Of a stretch of 64,000 bases of DNA, positions 16,326-63,033 are shown piece by piece. The stretch is from an uncultured Clostridia bacterium (lineage in GTDB: Bacteria > Bacillota > Clostridia > Oscillospirales > Acutalibacteraceae), in the NCBI GenBank assembly GCA_944384995.1, contig CALWVN010000003.1:62001-126000 (forward strand), read 5' to 3'. The first letter of the stretch is position 1. Each line of letters starts with the position of its first letter. The position numbers and the translations under genes were made by a program. The notes under the pieces were generated by a model, which made no database searches, was not told the origin of the DNA, and was given only the letters and a program-made list of their open reading frames with translations.

Positions 16326-17108
16326 TTATGCTTTTCCCATGCTGTGCTGTAAAAACGAGAACGCTTGATCGAGCCACCCTTCGGCGTCTTTTCCCTCGGC
16401 TAAACCGATACCGTGCCCGCCTGTGGGGTACAAATGCAGTTCATGGGGAACGCCGTATTGTTCGAGCGCGTCAGCAAGCATTTGGCTGTTGCGGTAGTCC
16501 ACGGAGGCGTCGTCCTTATTGTGCCACAAAAAGGTGGGCGGGTATTCGGCGGAAACAAGCTGCTCGACAGATGCCGCCGCCTGCTCCTTTTTACCCGAAA
16601 ACAACCCCAAAAGCCGCCGGCGCGAAAGCGCATGCGTGAGCTTCCCCATAGTGATCACGGGGTAAGAAAGCACCAGCGCAGCGGGACGCAGAGGATAGTC
16701 CTCTCCCTCGTATTTGCGTGCAAACAGCTTGTACTGTGCGCCGAAATATGCCGCCAAATGCCCGCCTGCGGAAGAACCGAGTAGTGCGATCCTGTTTTCT
16801 TCTACGCCGAACTCGTCCGTGCGGCTTTGCAAAAACTGCATCGCACGGGCAACATCGAGCATGGGGGCAGGGTAGCGTGCGGCGGCGCCGACGCGATACC
16901 ACAGCACAAAGGCGTTATAGCCGCGCGCTTGCAGCGACTCGGCAATAGGCTTCCCCTCGTTTGAGTCGGAGATCATATTATACGCCCCGCCGGGCAGGAT
17001 CAGCACGGACGGCGCGCTTTTCCCAACGGTATAGGCGTCCAAACACACCTTTTTCCGAGCAGGTTCTGCACGGCATTCGATTTTGTCATACAAATTATAG
17101 GTCTGCAA
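16326..17108 (-). CDS. Alpha/beta hydrolase (esterase, BD-FAE/lipase-like)
   Basis: A 260-residue cytoplasmic hydrolase. The oxyanion segment LPGGAYNMIS, nucleophile elbow LLGSSAGGHLA, acid in DDASVDYRNS and histidine in PTGGHGIGLAEG give a full Ser-Asp-His triad typical of acetyl-xylan esterase/HSL-like enzymes. The start is set at TTG 17108, behind AAGGAGG (11-base gap), because a consensus promoter lies at 17151-17179 and the ATG at 17186 would be upstream of it. The natural ester substrate is unknown; acetylated oligosaccharides are a reasonable guess. Confidence 0.8.
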   Translation of the reverse strand: MQTYNLYDKIECRAEPARKKVCLDAYTVGKSAPSVLILPGGAYNMISDSNEGKPIAESLQARGYNAFVLWYRVGAAARYPAPMLDVARAMQFLQSRTDEFGVEENRIALLGSSAGGHLAAYFGAQYKLFARKYEGEDYPLRPAALVLSYPVITMGKLTHALSRRRLLGLFSGKKEQAAASVEQLVSAEYPPTFLWHNKDDASVDYRNSQMLADALEQYGVPHELHLYPTGGHGIGLAEGKDAEGWLDQAFSFLQHSMGKA

Positions 17109-33469: not shown

Positions 33470-33991
33470 ATGGCAGAACAGCAAAATTTGGAGCGTATCT
33501 TCCTTTCCGCACTCGTCTATAACCGCACAGGCGTGCTGCTGCGCGTGGCGAGCCTGTTCGCGCGGCGTGGCTATAACGTCATCAGCCTGACCGTCGCCGA
33601 AACGGAAAATCCGCTGTATTCGCGCATCACCATCGTTTCGGACGTCGAGCCGTACAAATTCATGCAGGTCGAGCAGCAGCTTGCAAAGCTCGGCGACGTG
33701 ATCAAGGTCGTGAAATTAAGCGAAGGGCAGCTCATTGCCAGCGAGCTGCTTCTCATCAAGGTGCATGCGACCAACAGCCGCCGCACCGCAGTGCTCAAGA
33801 CCATCAACGGCTTCGGCGCGAAGGTCAAGGACATCGGCCACACCACCATCACGGCGGAGCTGACGGGGTTGCCGTCGCTGATCGACCGCTTTATTGAAAA
33901 AATGACCAAGCACGGCATCATCGAGCTGTCGCGCTCGGGTCTTACCGCGCTCGAAACGGGCGACACCAACATCAACGGAATCGAGGAATGA
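33470..33991 (+). CDS. ilvN: Acetolactate synthase small (regulatory) subunit
   Basis: 173 residues: an N-terminal ACT domain (about 8-80; FLSALVYNRTGVLLRVASLFARRGYNVISLTVAET is the valine-binding region with the GVL/RG pattern) and the family's C-terminal domain (90-160; ELLLIKVHAT, VLKTINGFGAK). It binds valine and activates/feedback-controls the large subunit IlvB. The large subunit gene is 16 kb away at 50006, whereas ilvBN are usually adjacent. Its start sits 13 bases after galM behind AAGAGGG; leuC follows 3 bases later. Confidence 0.93.
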   Translation: MAEQQNLERIFLSALVYNRTGVLLRVASLFARRGYNVISLTVAETENPLYSRITIVSDVEPYKFMQVEQQLAKLGDVIKVVKLSEGQLIASELLLIKVHATNSRRTAVLKTINGFGAKVKDIGHTTITAELTGLPSLIDRFIEKMTKHGIIELSRSGLTALETGDTNINGIEE

Positions 33992-33994
33992 CCT

Positions 33995-35257
33995 ATGGCT
34001 ATGACAATGACGCAAAAGATCCTTGCCGCGCACGCGGGGCTGCCGTCTGTTTCGGCGGGGCAGCTCATTGAGGCGAATTTGGATCTGGTGATGGGCAATG
34101 ACGTAACTTCTCCCGTCGCCATCCATGAAATGGAAGAAAAGGGCTTTCAAAAGGTCTTTGACAACGAACATATCGCCCTTGTGATGGATCACTTTACGCC
34201 CAACAAGGACATCAAATCTGCCGAGAACTGCAAAAAGGTTCGTACCTTTGCAAAGGAATACGGCATCCGCAATTTCTTTGACGTGGGGCAGATGGGCATT
34301 GAGCACGCTTTGCTTCCCGAACGCGGGCTTGTGATCTCGGGCGACGTGGTCATCGGCGCAGACTCGCACACCTGCACCTATGGCGCGCTCGGCGCATTTT
34401 CCACGGGCGTCGGCTCGACGGATATGGCGGCGGGCATGATCTCCGGCAAGGCTTGGTTCAAGGTACCGTCCGCGATCCAAGTGGTGCTTACCGGGAAGCT
34501 TCAGAAGTATGTCAGCGGCAAGGACGTGATCCTGCACCTCATCGGTAAGATCGGCGTGGACGGCGCGCGGTACCGCTCGCTGGAATTTGCGGGCGAGGGC
34601 GTCGCGAGCCTTTCCATGGATGATCGCTTCTGCATTGCCAATATGGCGATCGAGTGCGGCGCGAAAAACGGGATCTTCCCCGTGGACGAAAAGACGCTTG
34701 CCTATATGGAAGGGCGCACCTCGCGCAAGCCCGTTGTATACGAAGCGGACGCGGACGCGCCCTATGATGAAGTCGTCACCATTGATCTCAATACCCTCAA
34801 GCCCACGGTCGCGTTCCCGCATCTGCCGGAGAACACGCACACGATCGACGAGATCGAGCGCATTGACATCGATCAGGTCGTGATCGGCTCGTGCACCAAC
34901 GGCCGCATCGAGGATATGCGCGCGGCAGCGTCCATCATCCAAGGGCGTAAGATCGCCGACGGTGTGCGCTGCATCGTCATCCCCGCAACGCAGGCGGTGT
35001 ATTTGCAATGCATCGAGGAGGGGCTCACCAAAGCCTTTGTCGAAGCGGGCGCGATCGTCTCCACCCCGACCTGCGGACCGTGCCTCGGCGGGCACATGGG
35101 CATCCTTGCCGCGGGCGAACGCGCGGTCTCCACGACGAATCGCAATTTCGTCGGCAGAATGGGTGACCCTACCAGCGAAGTGTATCTCGCTAGCCCGTAT
35201 GTCGCGGCGGCAAGCGCCGTAACGGGGTACATTGCTGATCCTGCAAAGCTGGACTGA
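33995..35257 (+). CDS. leuC: 3-isopropylmalate dehydratase large subunit
   Basis: A 420-residue aconitase-superfamily enzyme (methanogen/clostridial HACN-like branch). It carries the 4Fe-4S ligand cysteines in [14 protein letters not shown]-like ([10 protein letters not shown]), and [15 protein letters not shown], with [12 protein letters not shown] in the middle. With LeuD it isomerises 2- to 3-isopropylmalate in leucine synthesis. It starts 3 bases after ilvN and is followed by leuD after 17 bases. The ~420-residue length and separate small subunit distinguish it from enterobacterial LeuC (~466). Confidence 0.95.
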
Positions 35258-35782: not shown

Positions 35783-37420
35783 ATGAAACCGATTTTCAAA
35801 AAGACAGCCGAAATTTTCGCCGTGCTCGCATCCTCTGCGGGCGCGGCGGCTGTGCTTGTCTACACGGTACTGTACGCAAAGGCAAACGTCAATTCCGATA
35901 CGATGGATACCCTTATGTGGGCGTATGCGTCATATCGTTCAGGCTCGCTGTTTGCCGCGGATTTCGCGTATGCGGGCTTTTTGCCGTTCGGCGGCGCGCT
36001 TTTGATGCTGCCGTTCGTGGCTTTGTTCGGCGTCAGCTATACGGCGCATATTGCGGGGATGGTCGTGTTTCTGCTGCTGTTCTTTGCCGCGCTTGTGTGG
36101 TTCGCACGCCGCATGTGCCTGGGACTTCTCGGCGGGAGCTTGCTTTTTTCGGCGGTATGCGCGCTGCTGCTTTGCGGACCGAAATTCCGCGAGATGTTTT
36201 GCGAGCACATCCTCTATTACAGCCTTTCCGCTTTATTTCTGATGGTCGGTTTTTCGCTGCTGACCGCATTTTTAGAGGCATTGCAGACACAGTGCCGCCG
36301 CAGGGCGGTGCTGTGGGGGCTTGCCGCTTTTTTGTTTTTTACCGCTGTTTCGTCCGACGGCTTTCAGGTGGCGGGCATTGCCGCGCTGCCGCTATGCATC
36401 GCCTTTTTCTGCGAACGCTTTTTCGACACGAAAGCGAAACTGACGGCACAGGAGAACCTGCCCGCCTTTATTGCCGCAGCATTGCCCTTGCCCGCTATGG
36501 CGCTCGGCTTTCTTTTGCGCTATGCGGTCACGGGCGGCGCGCAGTTCGGCTATGCGAACGCCTCTTCCGCTTATGATTCGGCTGCAGAGATGCTCAACTG
36601 GACGGGCAAGCTTCAAAACCTTGTAACGGAATATTTTTTGCTGTTTGATATATCCTTTACCGATAATGCGAGCTTGACGGATCTTGCCCAGCTGCCCGCG
36701 CTTCTGCGCTGCCTGTTTGCGGCGCTTTTGCCGTGCACGTTCCTTGTTTTCGCATTTTGCTATCGGAAAATCAAAGATGTACACCTCAAACGCCTGTTCT
36801 GGGCGGTGGCGGCGGTGTGCGGCATTACGGTGTTCCTCTGGTTCTTCGGTACGATCTCCAACGCGGGCTGGCGGCTCATCCCCATGATCTTCAGTCTGCT
36901 GTTGTTGTTTGCGGCAAGCGTGGTTGCGCTTTTGCGCCGTGTCTCCGTGCGCCGCTTCGGCGTGGTGCTTTGCGCAGTGACGCTGCTGTTTTTCGCGGAA
37001 TCGGTCTTTTCTCTTAGCAATTTGCAGGTCGTGCGGGAGCCCGCCGGGAAGTACCAGGGGCTTTACGACGCAATTACCGCGCGGGGGCTTTCTTGCGGCT
37101 ACGGCAATTTTTGGTTTTCCAATGCGCTCTTTGTGATGAGCGATGGTAAAGTACAGCCGCACAATGTCGGAATCTCCGAAAACGGCGAACTTCTGCTTGA
37201 AAATTACCAGCAGTTCCCTATCGATGCAACAGCGCATGCTCAACAGAACGGCTGCTATCTGATCGTATTAGCGTCCGATGTGCAGCGCTTTGAAGCCTCC
37301 GAGACTTATCAGGCGCTTGCCGGTTATGAGACGGGGACGTATACGGACACAGAAGCCCCGTGGGGGTGCAGGGTATATTTCTATTCCCGCGATATTTCCG
37401 CCTTTTTCGCGGAGAAATGA
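35783..37420 (+). CDS. Polytopic membrane protein, possibly GT-C-type glycosyltransferase
   Basis: 545 residues. About 11-12 helices occupy residues 1-410, then a soluble ~130-residue C-terminal domain (with NFWFSNALFVMSDGK and FPIDATAHAQQNGCYLIVLAS). A short acidic loop after the first helix (NVNSDTMDTLMWAYASYRSG) is where GT-C enzymes carry their catalytic Asp, so a polyprenyl-phosphate-sugar-dependent glycosyltransferase is possible, but I do not recognise a specific family. AGGGGAG precedes the ATG. It lies 28 bases after leuD, likely read through from that operon. Confidence 0.5.
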   Translation: MKPIFKKTAEIFAVLASSAGAAAVLVYTVLYAKANVNSDTMDTLMWAYASYRSGSLFAADFAYAGFLPFGGALLMLPFVALFGVSYTAHIAGMVVFLLLFFAALVWFARRMCLGLLGGSLLFSAVCALLLCGPKFREMFCEHILYYSLSALFLMVGFSLLTAFLEALQTQCRRRAVLWGLAAFLFFTAVSSDGFQVAGIAALPLCIAFFCERFFDTKAKLTAQENLPAFIAAALPLPAMALGFLLRYAVTGGAQFGYANASSAYDSAAEMLNWTGKLQNLVTEYFLLFDISFTDNASLTDLAQLPALLRCLFAALLPCTFLVFAFCYRKIKDVHLKRLFWAVAAVCGITVFLWFFGTISNAGWRLIPMIFSLLLLFAASVVALLRRVSVRRFGVVLCAVTLLFFAESVFSLSNLQVVREPAGKYQGLYDAITARGLSCGYGNFWFSNALFVMSDGKVQPHNVGISENGELLLENYQQFPIDATAHAQQNGCYLIVLASDVQRFEASETYQALAGYETGTYTDTEAPWGCRVYFYSRDISAFFAEK

Positions 37421-50005: not shown

Positions 50006-51712
50006 ATGAAGCTGAACGGTTCGGATATTATAGCCGAGGTGCTCATTGAGCAGGGCGTGGATACCATTTTTGGGTATCCCGGCGGCTCTGTATTGAACAT
50101 TTACGACGCGCTTTACAAATATCGTGACAAGATCCGCCACGTCCTCACCGCGCACGAACAGGGCGCTGCCCATGCGGCGGACGGCTATGCGCGTGCCACG
50201 GGTAGAACGGGTGTGGTGCTTGCCACAAGCGGCCCCGGGGCTACGAATCTGGTCACAGGTATTGCCACGGCATATATGGATTCCGTCCCGATGGTCGCCA
50301 TTACCGGCAACGTCGGCACGTCGCTGATCGGGCGCGATGCGTTTCAGGAGGTCTATATCACGGGCATCACCATGCCCATCACAAAGCATAATTTCATGGT
50401 GCAGAACATATCTGAACTCGCATCGGTCCTGCGTGAGGCATTCCGGATCGCCAATTCCGGCAGAAAAGGGCCTGTGCTTGTAGATGTGCCGAAGGATATC
50501 ACGGCAGCAGTCACGGAGTTTGAACGGCAGGTGCCGGCAAAGATCGTGGATGAAACGGTGCTCGACGAAGAAAAGCTGCAAAGAGCAGCAGCGCTGATCA
50601 ATGCGGCCCGGTGCCCCGTCATTGAGCTCGGCGGCGGCGTCGCCTCGGCGGATGCGTCCGATATTGCGCGCGCCGTGGTGGAAAAAACAGGCATCCCGAC
50701 CTGCCATACCCTGATGGCGACGGGCGTGCTCGGCTACGACGAACCGCTTAACTACGGGCTTGTGGGTATGCACGGCAACCTTGTGACCAACAAGGCGATC
50801 GATGAAGCGGATCTGCTTTTGGCGATCGGCACGCGTTTTTCCGACCGCGTGGCGCTTGACCCGGAGCATTTCGCCTCGCACGCGGCGATCATCCAGATCG
50901 ACATCGATCAAAGCGAGATCAACAAAAACGTTCGCGTGAACGAATACCTGACGGGCGACGTGAAAACGATCCTGACCGCGCTCCTGCCGCTGTTGGAGAA
51001 CAAAACGCATGACGATTGGATCGCGCGGCTTGCAGAATTCAAAAAGCAGGATTACACCCCGAAAGACAGCGAGGAATTCCTCACGCCGCACGCGCTGGTG
51101 CGCGCGATCTGTGAAGGAACGGACAAGGAAACGATCTATGTCACCGACGTCGGTCAGCACCAGATGTGGGCGGCGCAGTACCTGTCGCACACCAAGTCCC
51201 GCGACTTTTTGACAAGCGGGGGCTTAGGTACCATGGGCTACGGCTACGGTGCGGCAATCGGCGCGCAGATCGGCTGTCCCGAAAAACGTGTGGTACATAT
51301 CACGGGCGACGGTTCTTTCCACATGAACTTAAACGAGGCGTGCACGGCGGTCAGCAACCACCTGCCGATCATCACCGTGATCTTTGACAACCGCGTGCTC
51401 GGTATGGTGCGCCAGTGGCAGACCTGCTTCTACGGAAAACGCTATTCCCAGACCGACCCTGAGCGTCAAACGGATTTCGTAAAGGTGATCGAGGGCTTCG
51501 GCGGCAAGGGCTACCATGCGCATACGCTCGAAGAGTTCAAGGCGGCGTATAAGGCGGCGCAGCAGGCGGACGGCCCCGTTTGGATTGCCTGCGATATCCA
51601 AAAGGACGCGCGCGTCGTGCCGATGATCCCGGCGGGCAAGACCGTGGACAGCATTCTGCTTGCCGATTCCTGTGTGACCTGCGAAAAGCAGTGCTACAAG
51701 CAGAAAAATTAA
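50006..51712 (+). CDS. ilvB: Acetolactate synthase large (catalytic) subunit
   Basis: A 568-residue ThDP enzyme making acetolactate or acetohydroxybutyrate, the first shared step of valine and isoleucine synthesis. The substrate/PYR domain has DTIFGYPGGSVLNIYD, the catalytic Glu in AHEQGAAHAADGYARATG and SGPGATNLVTGIA. The PP domain has GLGTMGYGYGAAIGAQ and the ThDP-Mg motif GDGSFHMNLNE. The FAD-binding middle domain is present. Start ATG 50006, after GGAGAGAAG; the 49994 in-frame start is unlikely. Its regulatory partner ilvN is at 33470. Confidence 0.95.
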   Translation: MKLNGSDIIAEVLIEQGVDTIFGYPGGSVLNIYDALYKYRDKIRHVLTAHEQGAAHAADGYARATGRTGVVLATSGPGATNLVTGIATAYMDSVPMVAITGNVGTSLIGRDAFQEVYITGITMPITKHNFMVQNISELASVLREAFRIANSGRKGPVLVDVPKDITAAVTEFERQVPAKIVDETVLDEEKLQRAAALINAARCPVIELGGGVASADASDIARAVVEKTGIPTCHTLMATGVLGYDEPLNYGLVGMHGNLVTNKAIDEADLLLAIGTRFSDRVALDPEHFASHAAIIQIDIDQSEINKNVRVNEYLTGDVKTILTALLPLLENKTHDDWIARLAEFKKQDYTPKDSEEFLTPHALVRAICEGTDKETIYVTDVGQHQMWAAQYLSHTKSRDFLTSGGLGTMGYGYGAAIGAQIGCPEKRVVHITGDGSFHMNLNEACTAVSNHLPIITVIFDNRVLGMVRQWQTCFYGKRYSQTDPERQTDFVKVIEGFGGKGYHAHTLEEFKAAYKAAQQADGPVWIACDIQKDARVVPMIPAGKTVDSILLADSCVTCEKQCYKQKN

Positions 51713-51791: not shown

Positions 51792-51819
51792 TTGACACGG
51801 CTCGTTTACACGCTATAAT
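51792..51819 (+). promoter_or_regulatory. Promoter of the MarR-ABC exporter operon
   Basis: TTGACA (51792-51797), a 16-base spacer and TATAAT (51814-51819). The last T of the -10 is also the first base of the first operator palindrome, so bound MarR would block it. Confidence 0.85.
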
Positions 51820-51845
51820 TGACATGTCAATCATTGACATGTCAA
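51819..51845 (+). promoter_or_regulatory. Twin MarR operators
   Basis: Two identical perfect 12-bp palindromes, TTGACATGTCAA at 51819-51830 and 51834-51845, 15 bases centre to centre. They lie directly on the -10 and just downstream, before the marR gene. This is the usual layout of autorepressing MarR regulators. Confidence 0.85.
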
Positions 51846-51867
51846 TTTTTAGTATGGGGAGTATGCC

Positions 51868-56226: not shown

Positions 56227-56913
56227 TTATGCTTCGTATTCCTCCGGCAGGCGGATTCCTGCGGTATCCGTTACAGGGACGGAAAACACGATCGCGCCCG
56301 CGGGATTCGGCGCGCCGGCCTGTTCCATAACGGCGCGCATCACGTCGTTTTTGCGCGCGGTGCGCACCACAACGAACACCATTTCCTTTTCCTCTGCAAG
56401 CGAGATCCCCAAAAACTTTTTCGCCTGCTCGGCGCCTGTGCCCTTGGCATGCAGTACCGTGCCGCCCGTGGCTTGTGCGCTGCGCGCTGCGTCCATAATG
56501 GTATCGATACTGCCGCTGTTGGCAATGATGATCAGCAATTCAAAATCCGTGTTCTGCAAGGTGCTTTCCTCCTTGAGTGCGACTTCCTGCCCGTCCGTCA
56601 GGTATTGCAGCGTCCGTCTGCCGCCGATGCTGCTTAACGGCATTAAAAATGCCACGCCCACACCGGGAACACCGATGTACATGTTCCGATACAAAATTTT
56701 TTTAAGCTTCGTCCAGCTTTCTTCCGTGACGATCGCAAAGAACACCACGCGCTCTGAGGACTCCAGCCCCAGAAAATCCAGCGTTTCGCTGGTCGCGGTC
56801 CCTTTTCCGGGCACGGACAGGGTCACATGCACATTTTCCGACGCCAAAACCTCTGCAAATTTGTCTTTCAGTTCCCGTGCAACAATCAGCACGGCTACAT
56901 TGATTTCGTACAT
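56227..56913 (-). CDS. Tandem PII-like regulator paired with DUF1538
   Basis: 228 residues holding two PII-like ferredoxin-fold halves, about 1-108 and 115-225. The second half has the pattern DTIMDAARSAQATGGTVLHAKGTG and FLGISLAEEKEMVFVVV, closest to GlnK/PII-like signal proteins, while the first is more divergent. PII proteins bind ATP/ADP and 2-oxoglutarate or other small ligands and gate transporters. It lies 23 bases after the DUF1538 gene, in line with control of that membrane protein. Start ATG 56913, AGGAG 7 bases upstream; a GTG two codons earlier is possible. Confidence 0.8.
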   Translation of the reverse strand: MYEINVAVLIVARELKDKFAEVLASENVHVTLSVPGKGTATSETLDFLGLESSERVVFFAIVTEESWTKLKKILYRNMYIGVPGVGVAFLMPLSSIGGRRTLQYLTDGQEVALKEESTLQNTDFELLIIIANSGSIDTIMDAARSAQATGGTVLHAKGTGAEQAKKFLGISLAEEKEMVFVVVRTARKNDVMRAVMEQAGAPNPAGAIVFSVPVTDTAGIRLPEEYEA

Positions 56914-56936
56914 TTGCACGCTCCTCTCCGCCCGTG

Positions 56937-58466
56937 TTACAGCTCGATGATCTCAAGATCGGCAAGGGGTTCGCCCACGGGCAGCGCCGTTTCCGCAAAC
57001 TCTGCGCGGCGCGCCTTCCGTTTATACAAAACCCCGAAGATCTGAATGGTGATCAGCGGCGTCATAGCGACCATGGCGACCACGCCGAACGCGTCACGCA
57101 CCACATTGCCGCCCGTCGCCGTGCATGCGCCGATGGCGAACGGCAAAAGGAAGGTCGCCGTCATCGGGCCCGACGCAACGCCGCCGGAGTCAAAGGCGAT
57201 CGCGGTAAAAATTTTCGGCGTAAAGAACGAAAGAAGCAGTGCAATTGCATAGCCGGGGATCACCAGCCACAGCACCGAAACGCCCGCGAGCACGCGGATC
57301 AAGGCAAGCCCCACCGAAACGGCAACGCCGATGGAAAGGCTTGTGCTGAGCGCCTTGCCCGACACCGCGCCGGAGGTGATCTCTTCGACCTGCTCGCGCA
57401 AAACATAGACGGCGGGTTCGGCTCTGACGATGAAATAGCCCATCACTACGCCGATGGGTATAATGATCCAATTATAAGACAGCCCTGCAAGCGTCTGTCC
57501 AAGGTAGTTGCCCGCCGGCATGAAGCCGACGTTTACACCCGTCAAAAACAGTACAAGCCCGACATAGGTGTAAGCAAGCCCGATGACGATCTTCAACAGC
57601 TCGCGCTTTTTAAGCTTGAGCGCAAAAATTTGAAATACGGCAAAAAACAAGACGATCGGAAGCAAAGAGACCGCGATCTCCCGAATGTATTTCGGAAAGC
57701 CCGACAAAAACGTGTAAAACAGCTCTGCGGAATCCGCGATCTGCGGGATCTCGCTTGCGATATAGGTCGTGTCGCCGGGGTTATAGAGCACACCCAGCAG
57801 CAGCACGGCGAGGATGGGTCCGATGGAGCACAGCGCCACAAGGCCGAAGCTGTCGTTTTCGGCGTGCTTGTCGCTTCGCACGGCGGCAAAGCCGACGCCG
57901 AGCGCCATGATGAACGGGACGGTCATCGGCCCCGTGGTCACGCCGCCCGAGTCAAACGCGACCGCCAGAAAATCCTCCGGTACGAAAAAGGCGATCGCAA
58001 ATACAAGCAAATAAAATACGATCAGCAATTTGTTGAGCGATTTGGAAAACAGCATGCGCAGCACGGCGACGACCAAAAACAGCCCGACGCCGACCGCGAC
58101 CGCTAAAATGAGGATGAGATTGGGCACGGCGGGCACCTGCTCGGCAAGCACCTGCAAGTCCGGCTCGGAGATCGTAATGATAAAACCCAGCACGAACGCG
58201 AGCGCAGCCGTCAGCCAAAGCCGATTGGTCTTTGCCATACGCGCCCCGACCTTTTCGCCGACGGGCGTCATGGCAAGCTCCGCGCCGAGTGTAAAAAACA
58301 TCATGCCTGCGATCAGCAGCACCGCGCCGAACAGAAACAAAATCAAAATACCCGTCGGAATCGGTGCGATCGTAAAGCTTAACAGCAGCACGATGCATAC
58401 GATCGGCAGCACCGCCGAAAGCGCTTCTTTCAGTTTCTCTTTCAATTTGGTTTGATAATCCCGCAT
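56937..58466 (-). CDS. DUF1538 tandem-repeat membrane protein (putative transporter)
   Basis: 509 residues, about 12 helices in two homologous DUF1538 halves. Each half has a near-identical signature: AFDSGGVTTGPMTVPFIMALG (around residue 170) and AFDSGGVASGPMTATFLLPFA (around 430), the hallmark of a duplicated, pseudo-symmetric carrier. The function is unproven. An ion, ammonium-like or metabolite transporter controlled by the PII-like protein downstream is likely. CAGG about 7 bases before the ATG serves as the ribosome site. An inverted repeat lies at 58520-58544. Confidence 0.85.
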   Translation of the reverse strand: MRDYQTKLKEKLKEALSAVLPIVCIVLLLSFTIAPIPTGILILFLFGAVLLIAGMMFFTLGAELAMTPVGEKVGARMAKTNRLWLTAALAFVLGFIITISEPDLQVLAEQVPAVPNLILILAVAVGVGLFLVVAVLRMLFSKSLNKLLIVFYLLVFAIAFFVPEDFLAVAFDSGGVTTGPMTVPFIMALGVGFAAVRSDKHAENDSFGLVALCSIGPILAVLLLGVLYNPGDTTYIASEIPQIADSAELFYTFLSGFPKYIREIAVSLLPIVLFFAVFQIFALKLKKRELLKIVIGLAYTYVGLVLFLTGVNVGFMPAGNYLGQTLAGLSYNWIIIPIGVVMGYFIVRAEPAVYVLREQVEEITSGAVSGKALSTSLSIGVAVSVGLALIRVLAGVSVLWLVIPGYAIALLLSFFTPKIFTAIAFDSGGVASGPMTATFLLPFAIGACTATGGNVVRDAFGVVAMVAMTPLITIQIFGVLYKRKARRAEFAETALPVGEPLADLEIIEL

Positions 58467-59320: not shown

Positions 59321-60988
59321 TCAGATCTTCATCACAGCGCCGTCCTTGGCGGAGGAGACCATCTGCGCATAGCGCGCAAGCCAGCCGCTCGTGATGCGCG
59401 GCGGATGCGGCACATACGCTTTGCGGCGTTTTTCGAGCTCCTCGTCCGAAACGCGGACGTTGACTTTGGCATTCGGAATGTCGATCTCGATGATGTCGCC
59501 CTCTTCGATGAGGCCGATCTCGCCGCCGCAGGCAGCCTCCGGGCAGACATGCCCGATGGAAGCCCCGCGCGATGCGCCGGAAAAGCGGCCGTCGGTGATG
59601 AGTGCTACGGTCTTGTCAAGCTGCATGCCCGCAAGCGCCGAGGTGGGGTTGAGCATTTCGCGCATCCCGGGCCCGCCGACCGGGCCTTCATAGCGGATGA
59701 CCACCACGTCGCCGTCATGGATCTCGCCGCCGTAAATCGAAGCGATCGCTTCATCCTCGCTGTCGAACACACGTGCCGGACCTTCATGCACAAGCATTTC
59801 GGGCGCGACCGCACTGCGTTTCACAACACAGCCGTCTTTTGCGATGTTGCCCCACAAAATCGCAAGCCCGCCCGTTTCGCTGTACGGGTTCGTGATGGGA
59901 CGGATGGCGTTTTCGTCCTTGATATACGCGCCCTCGATGTTCTCGCCGACGGTCTTGCCCGTTACGGTCAGCAGGGAAAGGTCAAGAAGCCCTTTCTTCG
60001 CAAGCTCTGCCTGTACCGCCGGCACGCCGCCCGCATTGTTGAGGTCGTGCATATGCGTAGGTCCCGCAGGGGCAAGGTGGCAGAGGTTCGGCACCTTGGC
60101 GCTCATTTCGTTGAAGGTGTGCAGATCCATCGGGCAGCCTGCCTCTTTGGCAATGGCGAGCAGGTGCAGCACGGAGTTCGACGAGCACCCCAGCGCCATG
60201 TCGCACGCCAGCGCATTGCGAAGCGCCTTTTCGTTGATGATGTCACGCGCCTTGATGTCATTTTCGACCAGGTGCATGATCGCCATGCCCGCCTTTTTGG
60301 CAAGCTGCACGCGCCCCGCATGCACGGCGGGGATCGTCCCGTTGCCCGGCAGCGCGATGCCTAAGGATTCGCACAGGCAGTTCATGCTGTTGGCGGTATA
60401 CATGCCGGAGCACGAGCCGCAGCCCGGGCAGGTGTTGTTTTCAAATTCGCAAAGCTTCGCGTCGTCGATCAGGTTCGCCTTACGCGCGCCGACGGCTTCA
60501 AACATTTTGGAAAGCGAGGTCTCCACGCCGTCCACAAGACCCGACATCATCGGCCCGCCGGAGCAAACGACGGTCGGCAGATTGATGCGCAAAGCGCCCA
60601 GCAGCATGCCGGGAACGATCTTGTCGCAGTTGGGGACGAGAACCAGCCCGTCAAAGCCGTGCGCGGTTGCCATGGTCTCCACGCTGTCCGCGATCAGCTC
60701 GCGCGAGGGCAGGGAATACTTCATGCCAATATGCCCCATGGCAATGCCGTCGCATACGCCGATGGCGGGGACTTCGATCGGCGTGCCGCCCGCCATGCGC
60801 ACGCCCGCCTTGACCGCCTCGGCGATCTTGTCAAGGTGGATATGCCCGGGAACGATCTCGCTGTGCGCGGAGATTACGCCGATAAGCGGACGTTCCAATT
60901 CCTCTTTTGTATAGCCCATCGCATAAAACAGGCTGCGGTTCGGCGCGCGTTCCACGCCCTCCAACACGTTTTTGCTGTGTAAATTCAT
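59321..60988 (-). CDS. ilvD: Dihydroxy-acid dehydratase
   Basis: A 555-residue iron-sulfur enzyme of the IlvD/Edd family, dehydrating 2,3-dihydroxy-isovalerate and -methylvalerate to the keto acids of valine and isoleucine synthesis. Cluster cysteines lie in [13 protein letters not shown] and [31 protein letters not shown] and [12 protein letters not shown] are further family blocks. Start ATG 60988 follows AGGAGG. Its promoter (61055-61082) and operator match those of ilvC, with the regulator gene gntR divergent between the two. Confidence 0.95.
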
Positions 60989-61018: not shown

Positions 61019-61054
61019 AGTTGTATGACATATTCTAATAGTTGTCATACAACT
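61019..61054 (-). promoter_or_regulatory. FadR-type operator at the ilvD promoter
   Basis: AGTTGTATGACA (61019-61030) and TGTCATACAACT (61043-61054), a 12-bp inverted repeat with a 12-base spacer. Each arm also contains the TGTnnnACA dyad typical of GntR/FadR sites. It begins right at the end of the ilvD -10. The same arms and spacing occur at ilvC. Confidence 0.88.
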
Positions 61055-61082
61055 ATTATAGCAACAAAATCACAACTGTCAA
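61055..61082 (-). promoter_or_regulatory. Promoter of ilvD
   Basis: Minus strand: TTGACA (61077-61082), a 16-base spacer and TATAAT (61055-61060), running directly into the operator. Confidence 0.85.
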
Positions 61083-61201
61083 TACCCTTTTACGCTTTGC
61101 CGGGGATACAAACGCCGGCGAAGCATTTTTAAGGTTTGCTTTGCTTTTTTTGCAAAAGTATAGTATAGTGGAACAGGCAAATCTATGAATCGAGGCAGAT
61201 T

Positions 61202-61903
61202 ATGCAAACAGAAAACCTTTCCCAGCGCACCGCCGAAACGCTGCGTGCGCAGATCTTGGAAGAAAAGAAATACCGTCCGGGCGAAAAGCTGCCGAATGAA
61301 AATGAGCTTGCCGAGTCGCTCGGCATCAGCCGCACGACGCTTCGCGAGGCGATCCGCACGCTCGCTTCCGAAGGGCTTTTGGAGGTGCGGCGCGGGCGCG
61401 GCACGTTCGTAGCGGGGGAGCTTGACCGCGTCGCGGCGGAGAGCGTCAATATGCAGGAGCTCGTCCGAATGCAGGTCACGCTGCGTGACCTTTACGAAGC
61501 GCGCATGATCTTTGAGCCGCAAGCCGCCGCGCTCGCCTGCAAGCGTGCAACAGACGAGGAGATCGAGCGCATTTTGGCGCTCGGTGCGGAATGCCAGCGC
61601 CAGCTTCAGATCGACCCGCGCGGTAAAAACCGCATCGCCTCGGAAAGCGCGTTCCACGGTGCGATCATCAAGGCGGCGCACAACGACTTTTTAAGCCAGT
61701 TCATGCCCACGCTCACGCAGACGATCGAACAGACCTTCGCGCTCAACTACAATCTGGACGTCATCGCCGAGGACGCCTACAAAGATCATATTTTGATCAT
61801 GGATTTCTTAAAAAAGCGCGACGCGCGCGGCGTTAAAAGCGCCGTGACGGTGCACCTGCACCACGCCGTGCAGCACGAGCAAATTTCTTTTGAAGAATTG
61901 TAA
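61202..61903 (+). CDS. FadR-subfamily GntR transcription regulator, predicted ilv regulator
   Basis: 233 residues: an N-terminal winged helix (1-70; RTAETLRAQILEEKKYRPGEKLPNENELAESLG, then ISRTTLREAIRTL as recognition helix and a GRGTFV wing) and a C-terminal FCD ligand domain (~85-225) with the metal/ligand histidines and Asp in LYEARMIFEP, FHGAIIKAAHN, DHILIMDF and HLHHAV. The acidic or hydroxy-acid ligand could be a branched-chain pathway intermediate, given the position between ilvD and ilvC, whose promoters share the operator. GAGGCAG precedes the ATG. It is 104 bases from ilvC. Confidence 0.92.
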   Translation: MQTENLSQRTAETLRAQILEEKKYRPGEKLPNENELAESLGISRTTLREAIRTLASEGLLEVRRGRGTFVAGELDRVAAESVNMQELVRMQVTLRDLYEARMIFEPQAAALACKRATDEEIERILALGAECQRQLQIDPRGKNRIASESAFHGAIIKAAHNDFLSQFMPTLTQTIEQTFALNYNLDVIAEDAYKDHILIMDFLKKRDARGVKSAVTVHLHHAVQHEQISFEEL

Positions 61904-61910
61904 AAAGGTA

Positions 61911-61938
61911 TTGACAGAACAGAATTTGCGGTTATAAT
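61911..61938 (+). promoter_or_regulatory. Promoter of ilvC
   Basis: TTGACA (61911-61916), a 16-base spacer and TATAAT (61933-61938), followed at once by the operator. It is 8 bases after the regulator stop. Confidence 0.87.
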
Positions 61939-61974
61939 AGTTGTATGACAACAAATCAAACCTGTCATACAACT
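61939..61974 (+). promoter_or_regulatory. FadR-type operator at the ilvC promoter
   Basis: AGTTGTATGACA (61939-61950), a 12-base spacer and TGTCATACAACT (61963-61974). Arms are identical to those at ilvD; only the spacer differs. A repressor bound here would block the -10 and transcript start. Confidence 0.88.

Positions 61975-61995: not shown

Positions 61996-63033
<1,038 letters not shown>

Follow-up and report, generated by a model that had tools for sequence, protein, structure and literature searches.

A GntR/FCD regulator gene linked to ilvC and a paired candidate operator: a probable local control switch

In the genome of an uncultured Clostridia bacterium (Acutalibacteraceae), a gene for a GntR-type regulator lies between ilvD and ilvC, and each of the two ilv genes is preceded by a strong-looking promoter followed at once by an inverted repeat. 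Does the regulator control its neighbors through these repeats and, if so, in which sense and in response to what? The window, that is, the whole 64,000-nucleotide stretch analyzed here, holds ilvD (dihydroxy-acid dehydratase; 59321-60988, minus strand; TIGR00110, 751.6 bits against a cut-off of 618.15), whose start was picked by eye (the longest frame starts at 61048), the regulator gene gntR (61202-61903, plus strand, 233 aa) and ilvC (ketol-acid reductoisomerase; 62008-63033, plus strand; TIGR00465, 451.3 bits against 226.15). An earlier note on this DNA had described the two repeats and proposed that they form the operators of a dedicated ilvD/ilvC switch.

Both elements read AGTTGTATGACA-N12-TGTCATACAACT, 36 bp with identical 12-bp arms and a 12-base spacer, exactly as the earlier note had them. 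The candidate operator of ilvD occupies 61019-61054 on the minus strand and that of ilvC 61939-61974 on the plus strand. Each directly follows a TTGACA-16-TATAAT promoter (61055-61082, minus strand, and 61911-61938, plus strand), and the claim of consensus promoters also stood, both matching at 12 of 12 positions. The first TGT-N3-ACA dyad begins 3 bp after the -10 hexamer, and the dyad centers (61047, promoter-proximal, and 61026 at ilvD; 61946 and 61967 at ilvC) are 21 bp apart in both elements, i.e., two helical turns. Two adjacent sites 24 bp apart had been suspected; orientation variants in relatives (see below) bear out the two sites but the spacing is 21 bp, 24 being the offset of the arms. 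Only the arms are common to the two elements; they differ in their 12-base spacers and also in the 16 bases between the promoter hexamers, so this is not a fresh duplication of the promoter. In the window only these two elements match at up to three mismatches, and 100 dinucleotide shuffles gave none. In the genome to which the window belongs (G000; 1.89 Mb, 86% complete) the 32-bp core TTGTATGACA-N12-TGTCATACAA, again with up to three mismatches, matches only the same two places.

The regulator gene itself probably has a weak promoter of its own, TTGCTT-17-TATAGT (61141-61169, plus strand), seen by eye and without an operator; the promoter scan of the window did not pick it up, and a similar stretch precedes gntR in genus loci. 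One relative (L055) has a dyad pair about 30-60 nt before gntR, behind an 11/12 promoter, which suggests self-control of gntR at that locus. The same layout with another regulator family occurs elsewhere in the window: at 51792-51846 a consensus TTGACA-16-TATAAT leads straight into two ATTGACATGTCAAT palindromes, spaced by 15 bp, before a MarR-family gene and two ABC half-transporters.

What kind of protein is encoded between the elements? The product has a GntR winged helix at its N-terminus (PF00392, 79.2 bits, cut-off 27) and an FCD domain (PF07729, 75.8 bits, cut-off 24.3), so that by its domain content it is, as had been claimed, a GntR regulator of the FCD (FadR) subfamily. A structure model is helical from residue 94 on; its whole-chain matches had poor rmsd and were used for the fold class only. 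The best NCBIfam model is LldR (121.3 bits against a cut-off of 311) and the next PdhR (83.8 against 330); both scores are far below cut-off, so orthology with either was rejected and the regulator has no NCBIfam assignment. In an alignment of 30 regulators, E148, H152, H196, H218 and R101 are invariant in every row. E148 and H152 align with the Asp and His of solved relatives, the Asp/Asn of the metal site in known FCD proteins being replaced by Glu in all 30. By motif, the five residues appear to correspond to the metal site and the pocket Arg of DgoR, CitO and LldR; excerpts of the studies of DgoR (PMC7674646) and CitO (PMC4746285) indicate that these counterparts matter there.

Do the regulator gene and the dyad pair occur together in other organisms? 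Co-occurrence was scored in 59 genomes, G000 and 58 relatives, counting the regulator as present at E <1e-90. It is present in 17, and an ilvC of at least 90% identity is found in exactly those 17. A facing pair of dyads (up to two mismatches) was found in 16 of the 17 genomes with the regulator versus none of the 42 without it; the one missed (G014) has a 13-base gap (L068; twin L040). Five other genomes match at exactly three mismatches, as do five with the reversed control. The ilvC genes of G036 and G041, and the second of the two in G013, stand outside the operator survey. In relatives lacking the regulator, the frame before ilvC mostly reads, by eye, as an acetolactate synthase subunit. 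In a wider sample of the class, the regulator was found at E 1e-40 in 2 of 291 genomes, one being G000, which indicates that the family is patchy. A relative of 41% identity (G262, L137) has neither an ilvC alongside nor a TGT-N3-ACA dyad within its 3.7 kb.

Across species genomes, a pattern-based scan found 33 loci, of which 29 (L033-L061) are at 59% identity or above. Their titles name Fimenecus, Ruminococcus, Lachnospiraceae, Eubacterium ruminantium, Faecalitalea and MAGs labelled Erysipelothrix. The fetched locus contains ilvC in 27 of the 29; in the other two (L053, L059) the contig ends beside gntR. The regulator gene precedes ilvC in most loci, with one frame between them in L057, and follows it in L044, L045 and L049. 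Dyads were sought in 37 loci, of which 35 have an ilvC start (L053 and L059 have no ilvC), by scanning 260 nt upstream of ilvC for two sites with at least 7 of 9 matches each, a sum of at least 15 and a gap of 3-30. Many loci are MAG contigs, and some of the 35 represent one species from two collections. All 35 have two TGT-N3-ACA dyads upstream of ilvC, one dyad half being degenerate in a few (L041, L042, L047, L050), whereas no pair was found within 400 nt in any of 13 ilvC loci without the regulator (L082-L094). Nine genus loci stand outside the 35 (L004, L005, L007, L009-L013, L018); eight show the pair at up to two mismatches, and the ninth, L010, is that of the 13-base-gap genome G014. 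Conservation of the paired operator in related genomes, a check set beforehand, thus holds for ilvC.

Although left free in the scan, the gap between the dyads is always 12-14, with centers 21 bp apart in 29 loci, 22 in five and 23 in one. The direction of the dyads varies: they face each other in 24 loci, point outward in seven and run in the same direction in three and in one. For 20 of the 24 facing loci, the information content per column comes to 1.92 and 1.70 bits in the two dyads, 0.62 in the spacer and 0.49 downstream; there the motif extends to GTTGT-N3-ACAAC and the promoter-proximal copy is the better conserved. In the same-direction clade (L051, L052, L061) the pair lies 20 bp behind the -10 hexamer rather than 0-4 bp, and from the pair to the ilvC start there are 158 nt in L057 and 102 nt in L060; the position of the pair is accordingly not rigid. 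A tree of 30 regulators unites the three same-direction loci in a single supported group (97/88), while the outward type is not one clade (three changes, at least two of them forced). Overall the tree needs five changes of orientation where the least possible is four, so that few events are proven.

Variable direction at a steady distance implies that the conserved unit is two dyads about two turns apart and not a long palindrome. It might still be asked whether one protein, perhaps a different regulator, recognizes the 36 bp as a single palindrome, given that both copies in the window are perfect palindromes of 12-bp arms. We consider this improbable: the facing, outward and same-direction arrangements found in relatives at near-equal distance break the palindrome but keep both dyads, which rules out one long palindrome as the conserved site, and a different binding protein fits poorly with the finding that the pair is present where this GntR gene is. 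The reading as two dyads served by the GntR protein also agrees with the GT-N3-AC operator layout of the FadR subfamily given in excerpts of PMC4494728, which supports the earlier view of a putative GntR-type operator.

Does the element work in the transcript rather than on DNA, forming a hairpin at the 5' end by which the mRNA is protected or attenuated? Its 36 bases can fold to a 12-bp stem (-14.0 kcal/mol), and since the same-direction variants still give a broken stem (-9.5 to -14.2), folding alone is no ground against a hairpin. These variants, however, lack the three core pairs. With transcription starting about 7 bases after the -10 hexamer, the RNA would be missing part of the first arm; moreover, the element tracks the GntR gene from genome to genome, and no Rfam family matches it. 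A role in RNA is in our judgment improbable.

Which genes would these dyads control? The earlier claim that regulation is local is supported; that of a dedicated ilvD/ilvC switch lacks support in this form. While ilvC is the constant target (35 of 35 loci), ilvD carries the pair in only four of the 10 loci that include an ilvD start, twins counted once (the window genome, L034, L033 and L037), and lacks it in six (L035, L036, L039, L016, L054, L056). On these counts ilvC is the core target, to which ilvD is a lineage-specific addition. Within the window the paired operator is absent at ilvB (50006-51712), ilvN (33470-33991) and leuC (33995-35257). It is of note that the acetolactate synthase subunits are split, ilvN standing before leuC and ilvB 16 kb away.

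Searching G000 with TTGTATGACAA alone gave seven places (the reversed control gave one per strand), of which two are in the elements and four in open frames or at their edges (window positions 17083 and 38731; L124; L125). At L130, 1501-1511 (G000:C7:52964), a lone TTGTCATACAA directly follows a -10-like TATACT and precedes a frame that starts with MLRLLVLSDSH; this dyad is possibly a single-site target, or else due to chance. A TGT-N3-ACA pair also occurs at G000:C7:17700, the third in the genome; its cores differ and it falls within a direct repeat. The reversed control finds one such pair too. Two further features of the window were noted in passing: a gene encoding a P-II domain that immediately follows one for a DUF1538 membrane protein (56227-58466, minus strand), and a 545-aa open frame at 35783-37420 with no Pfam match at 1e-6 and no NCBIfam match at 1e-10.

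The ilv operons of Firmicutes, the same genes in the same phylum, are known to be controlled by T-boxes and CodY. The locus differs from these systems, as the earlier note had it: no CodY match was found in any of the 36 genomes searched, G000 included, and no T-box at gathering score in the window, nor any in seven scanned loci that have the regulator. T-boxes are not foreign to the host organism, since G000 has eight matches elsewhere; matches at E <=0.001 occur in all 59 genomes, in 54 above the family cut-off. Among the loci lacking the regulator, a T-box stands upstream of the ilv genes at gathering score in four of 13 (L144 ends at a contig edge), and with so few the general rule that GntR has replaced the T-box was rejected.

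Is the regulator a repressor or an activator? Its candidate sites sit on the expected start point of consensus promoters, from which repression is argued. Some FCD regulators do activate, among them CitO according to an excerpt of PMC4746285, and the same could be proposed for ilvC and ilvD. We hold this to be unlikely, because sites downstream of the -10 hexamer in consensus promoters are in a repressor's position; furthermore, the ilvC promoters match the consensus at 12 of 12 positions in 27 of the 35 loci and at 10-11 in the other eight, and so have no evident need of an activator.

Taken together, these sequence comparisons lead us to favor, with good though not full confidence, the reading that the 61202 product is a local repressor of ilvC that acts through two dyads and is released by a small metal-chelating acid. 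We infer binding to these sites, repression, two dimers, a bound metal and a ligand, and the scheme would run as follows. Each regulator dimer would bind one GTTGT-N3-ACAAC dyad, so that two dimers would lie next to each other immediately past the -10 hexamer, spaced by two helical turns. In this position they would cover the point where ilvC transcription is expected to start and, in the host organism and three close relatives, that of ilvD as well, shutting off promoters otherwise of consensus strength. Release from the DNA would come when a small acid chelates the metal of the FCD pocket. The invariant E148, H152, H196, H218 and R101 point to an acidic, metal-chelating ligand and make this class plausible. 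As ligand, the most economical choice would be a compound on which IlvC acts (2-acetolactate or 2-aceto-2-hydroxybutyrate) or the one that it forms; ilvC would then open on the arrival of acetohydroxy acids. The scheme would follow the logic of IlvY in E. coli, though through an unrelated protein and with opposite sign. By pathway logic and the IlvY precedent, a hydroxy or keto acid of the pathway is the predicted signal, acetolactate being the best fit.

The repressor might instead respond to an end product acting as co-repressor (valine, ketoisovalerate) or to a central acid (lactate, pyruvate), a sub-case of the favored reading whose likelihood is not to be added to that of the others. LldR and then PdhR are the nearest NCBIfam models, which speaks for such a signal, but their scores (see above) give no assignment, and the enzyme encoded by the constant target uses up acetolactate; we give this variant a somewhat less than even chance. 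The gntR/paired-operator arrangement is probably a real local control switch, undescribed in the literature searched. More tentatively, and with slightly more doubt than belief, the proteins may constitute an undescribed FCD repressor family that senses an acetohydroxy acid and rules branched-chain amino acid synthesis at ilvC, as the repressor counterpart of IlvY, in a linked gntR-ilvC unit that spans several Firmicutes families and replaces T-box control in some lineages. The switch would give Firmicutes, here largely uncultured gut bacteria, a further mode of ilv control beside CodY and T-boxes; it would also provide a paired operator of compact size, set on a full-consensus promoter, with acetolactate perhaps as inducer. 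The natural variants in dyad direction at near-fixed distance are a good test set for the placement of FCD dimers on DNA.

How does the locus compare with known systems? It resembles IlvY-ilvC of E. coli in having a local regulator beside ilvC and two adjacent candidate operators; according to excerpts of PMC6483228, IlvY binds its two operators cooperatively and senses the substrate. Likeness in substrate sensing is for the GntR/FCD regulator a proposal by analogy. IlvY, unlike this probable repressor, is a LysR-type activator transcribed away from ilvC; here the sites lie behind the -10 hexamer and, in the loci compared, gntR and ilvC share a strand. No LysR family is among the eight Pfam hits, and the comparison with IlvY is one of working only.

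With DgoR, LldR and PdhR the regulator shares the GntR winged helix and FCD domain; its putative metal-site residues (with Glu at E148 in place of Asp/Asn) and its candidate GT-N3-AC operators would be further points in common. Known targets of the FadR subfamily are mostly catabolic or belong to central metabolism, whereas the target here is a biosynthetic step. DgoR has two inverted repeats over its promoter (excerpt of PMC7674646), and double sites at constant distance occur in 29 of 100 FadR divergons (excerpt of PMC4494728). Among the matches listed in the literature searched, which lay mostly outside subscription papers, there is no description of a GntR regulator of ilvC; an excerpt of PMC4376890, from another context, names a GntR and, separately, a ketol-acid reductoisomerase among transposon hits. 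The protein type and the operator type are thus already known for the FadR subfamily, as is the pairing of sites at a constant distance; new, within that literature and among those matches, are ilvC as the target and the freedom of the paired dyads before it to point either way.
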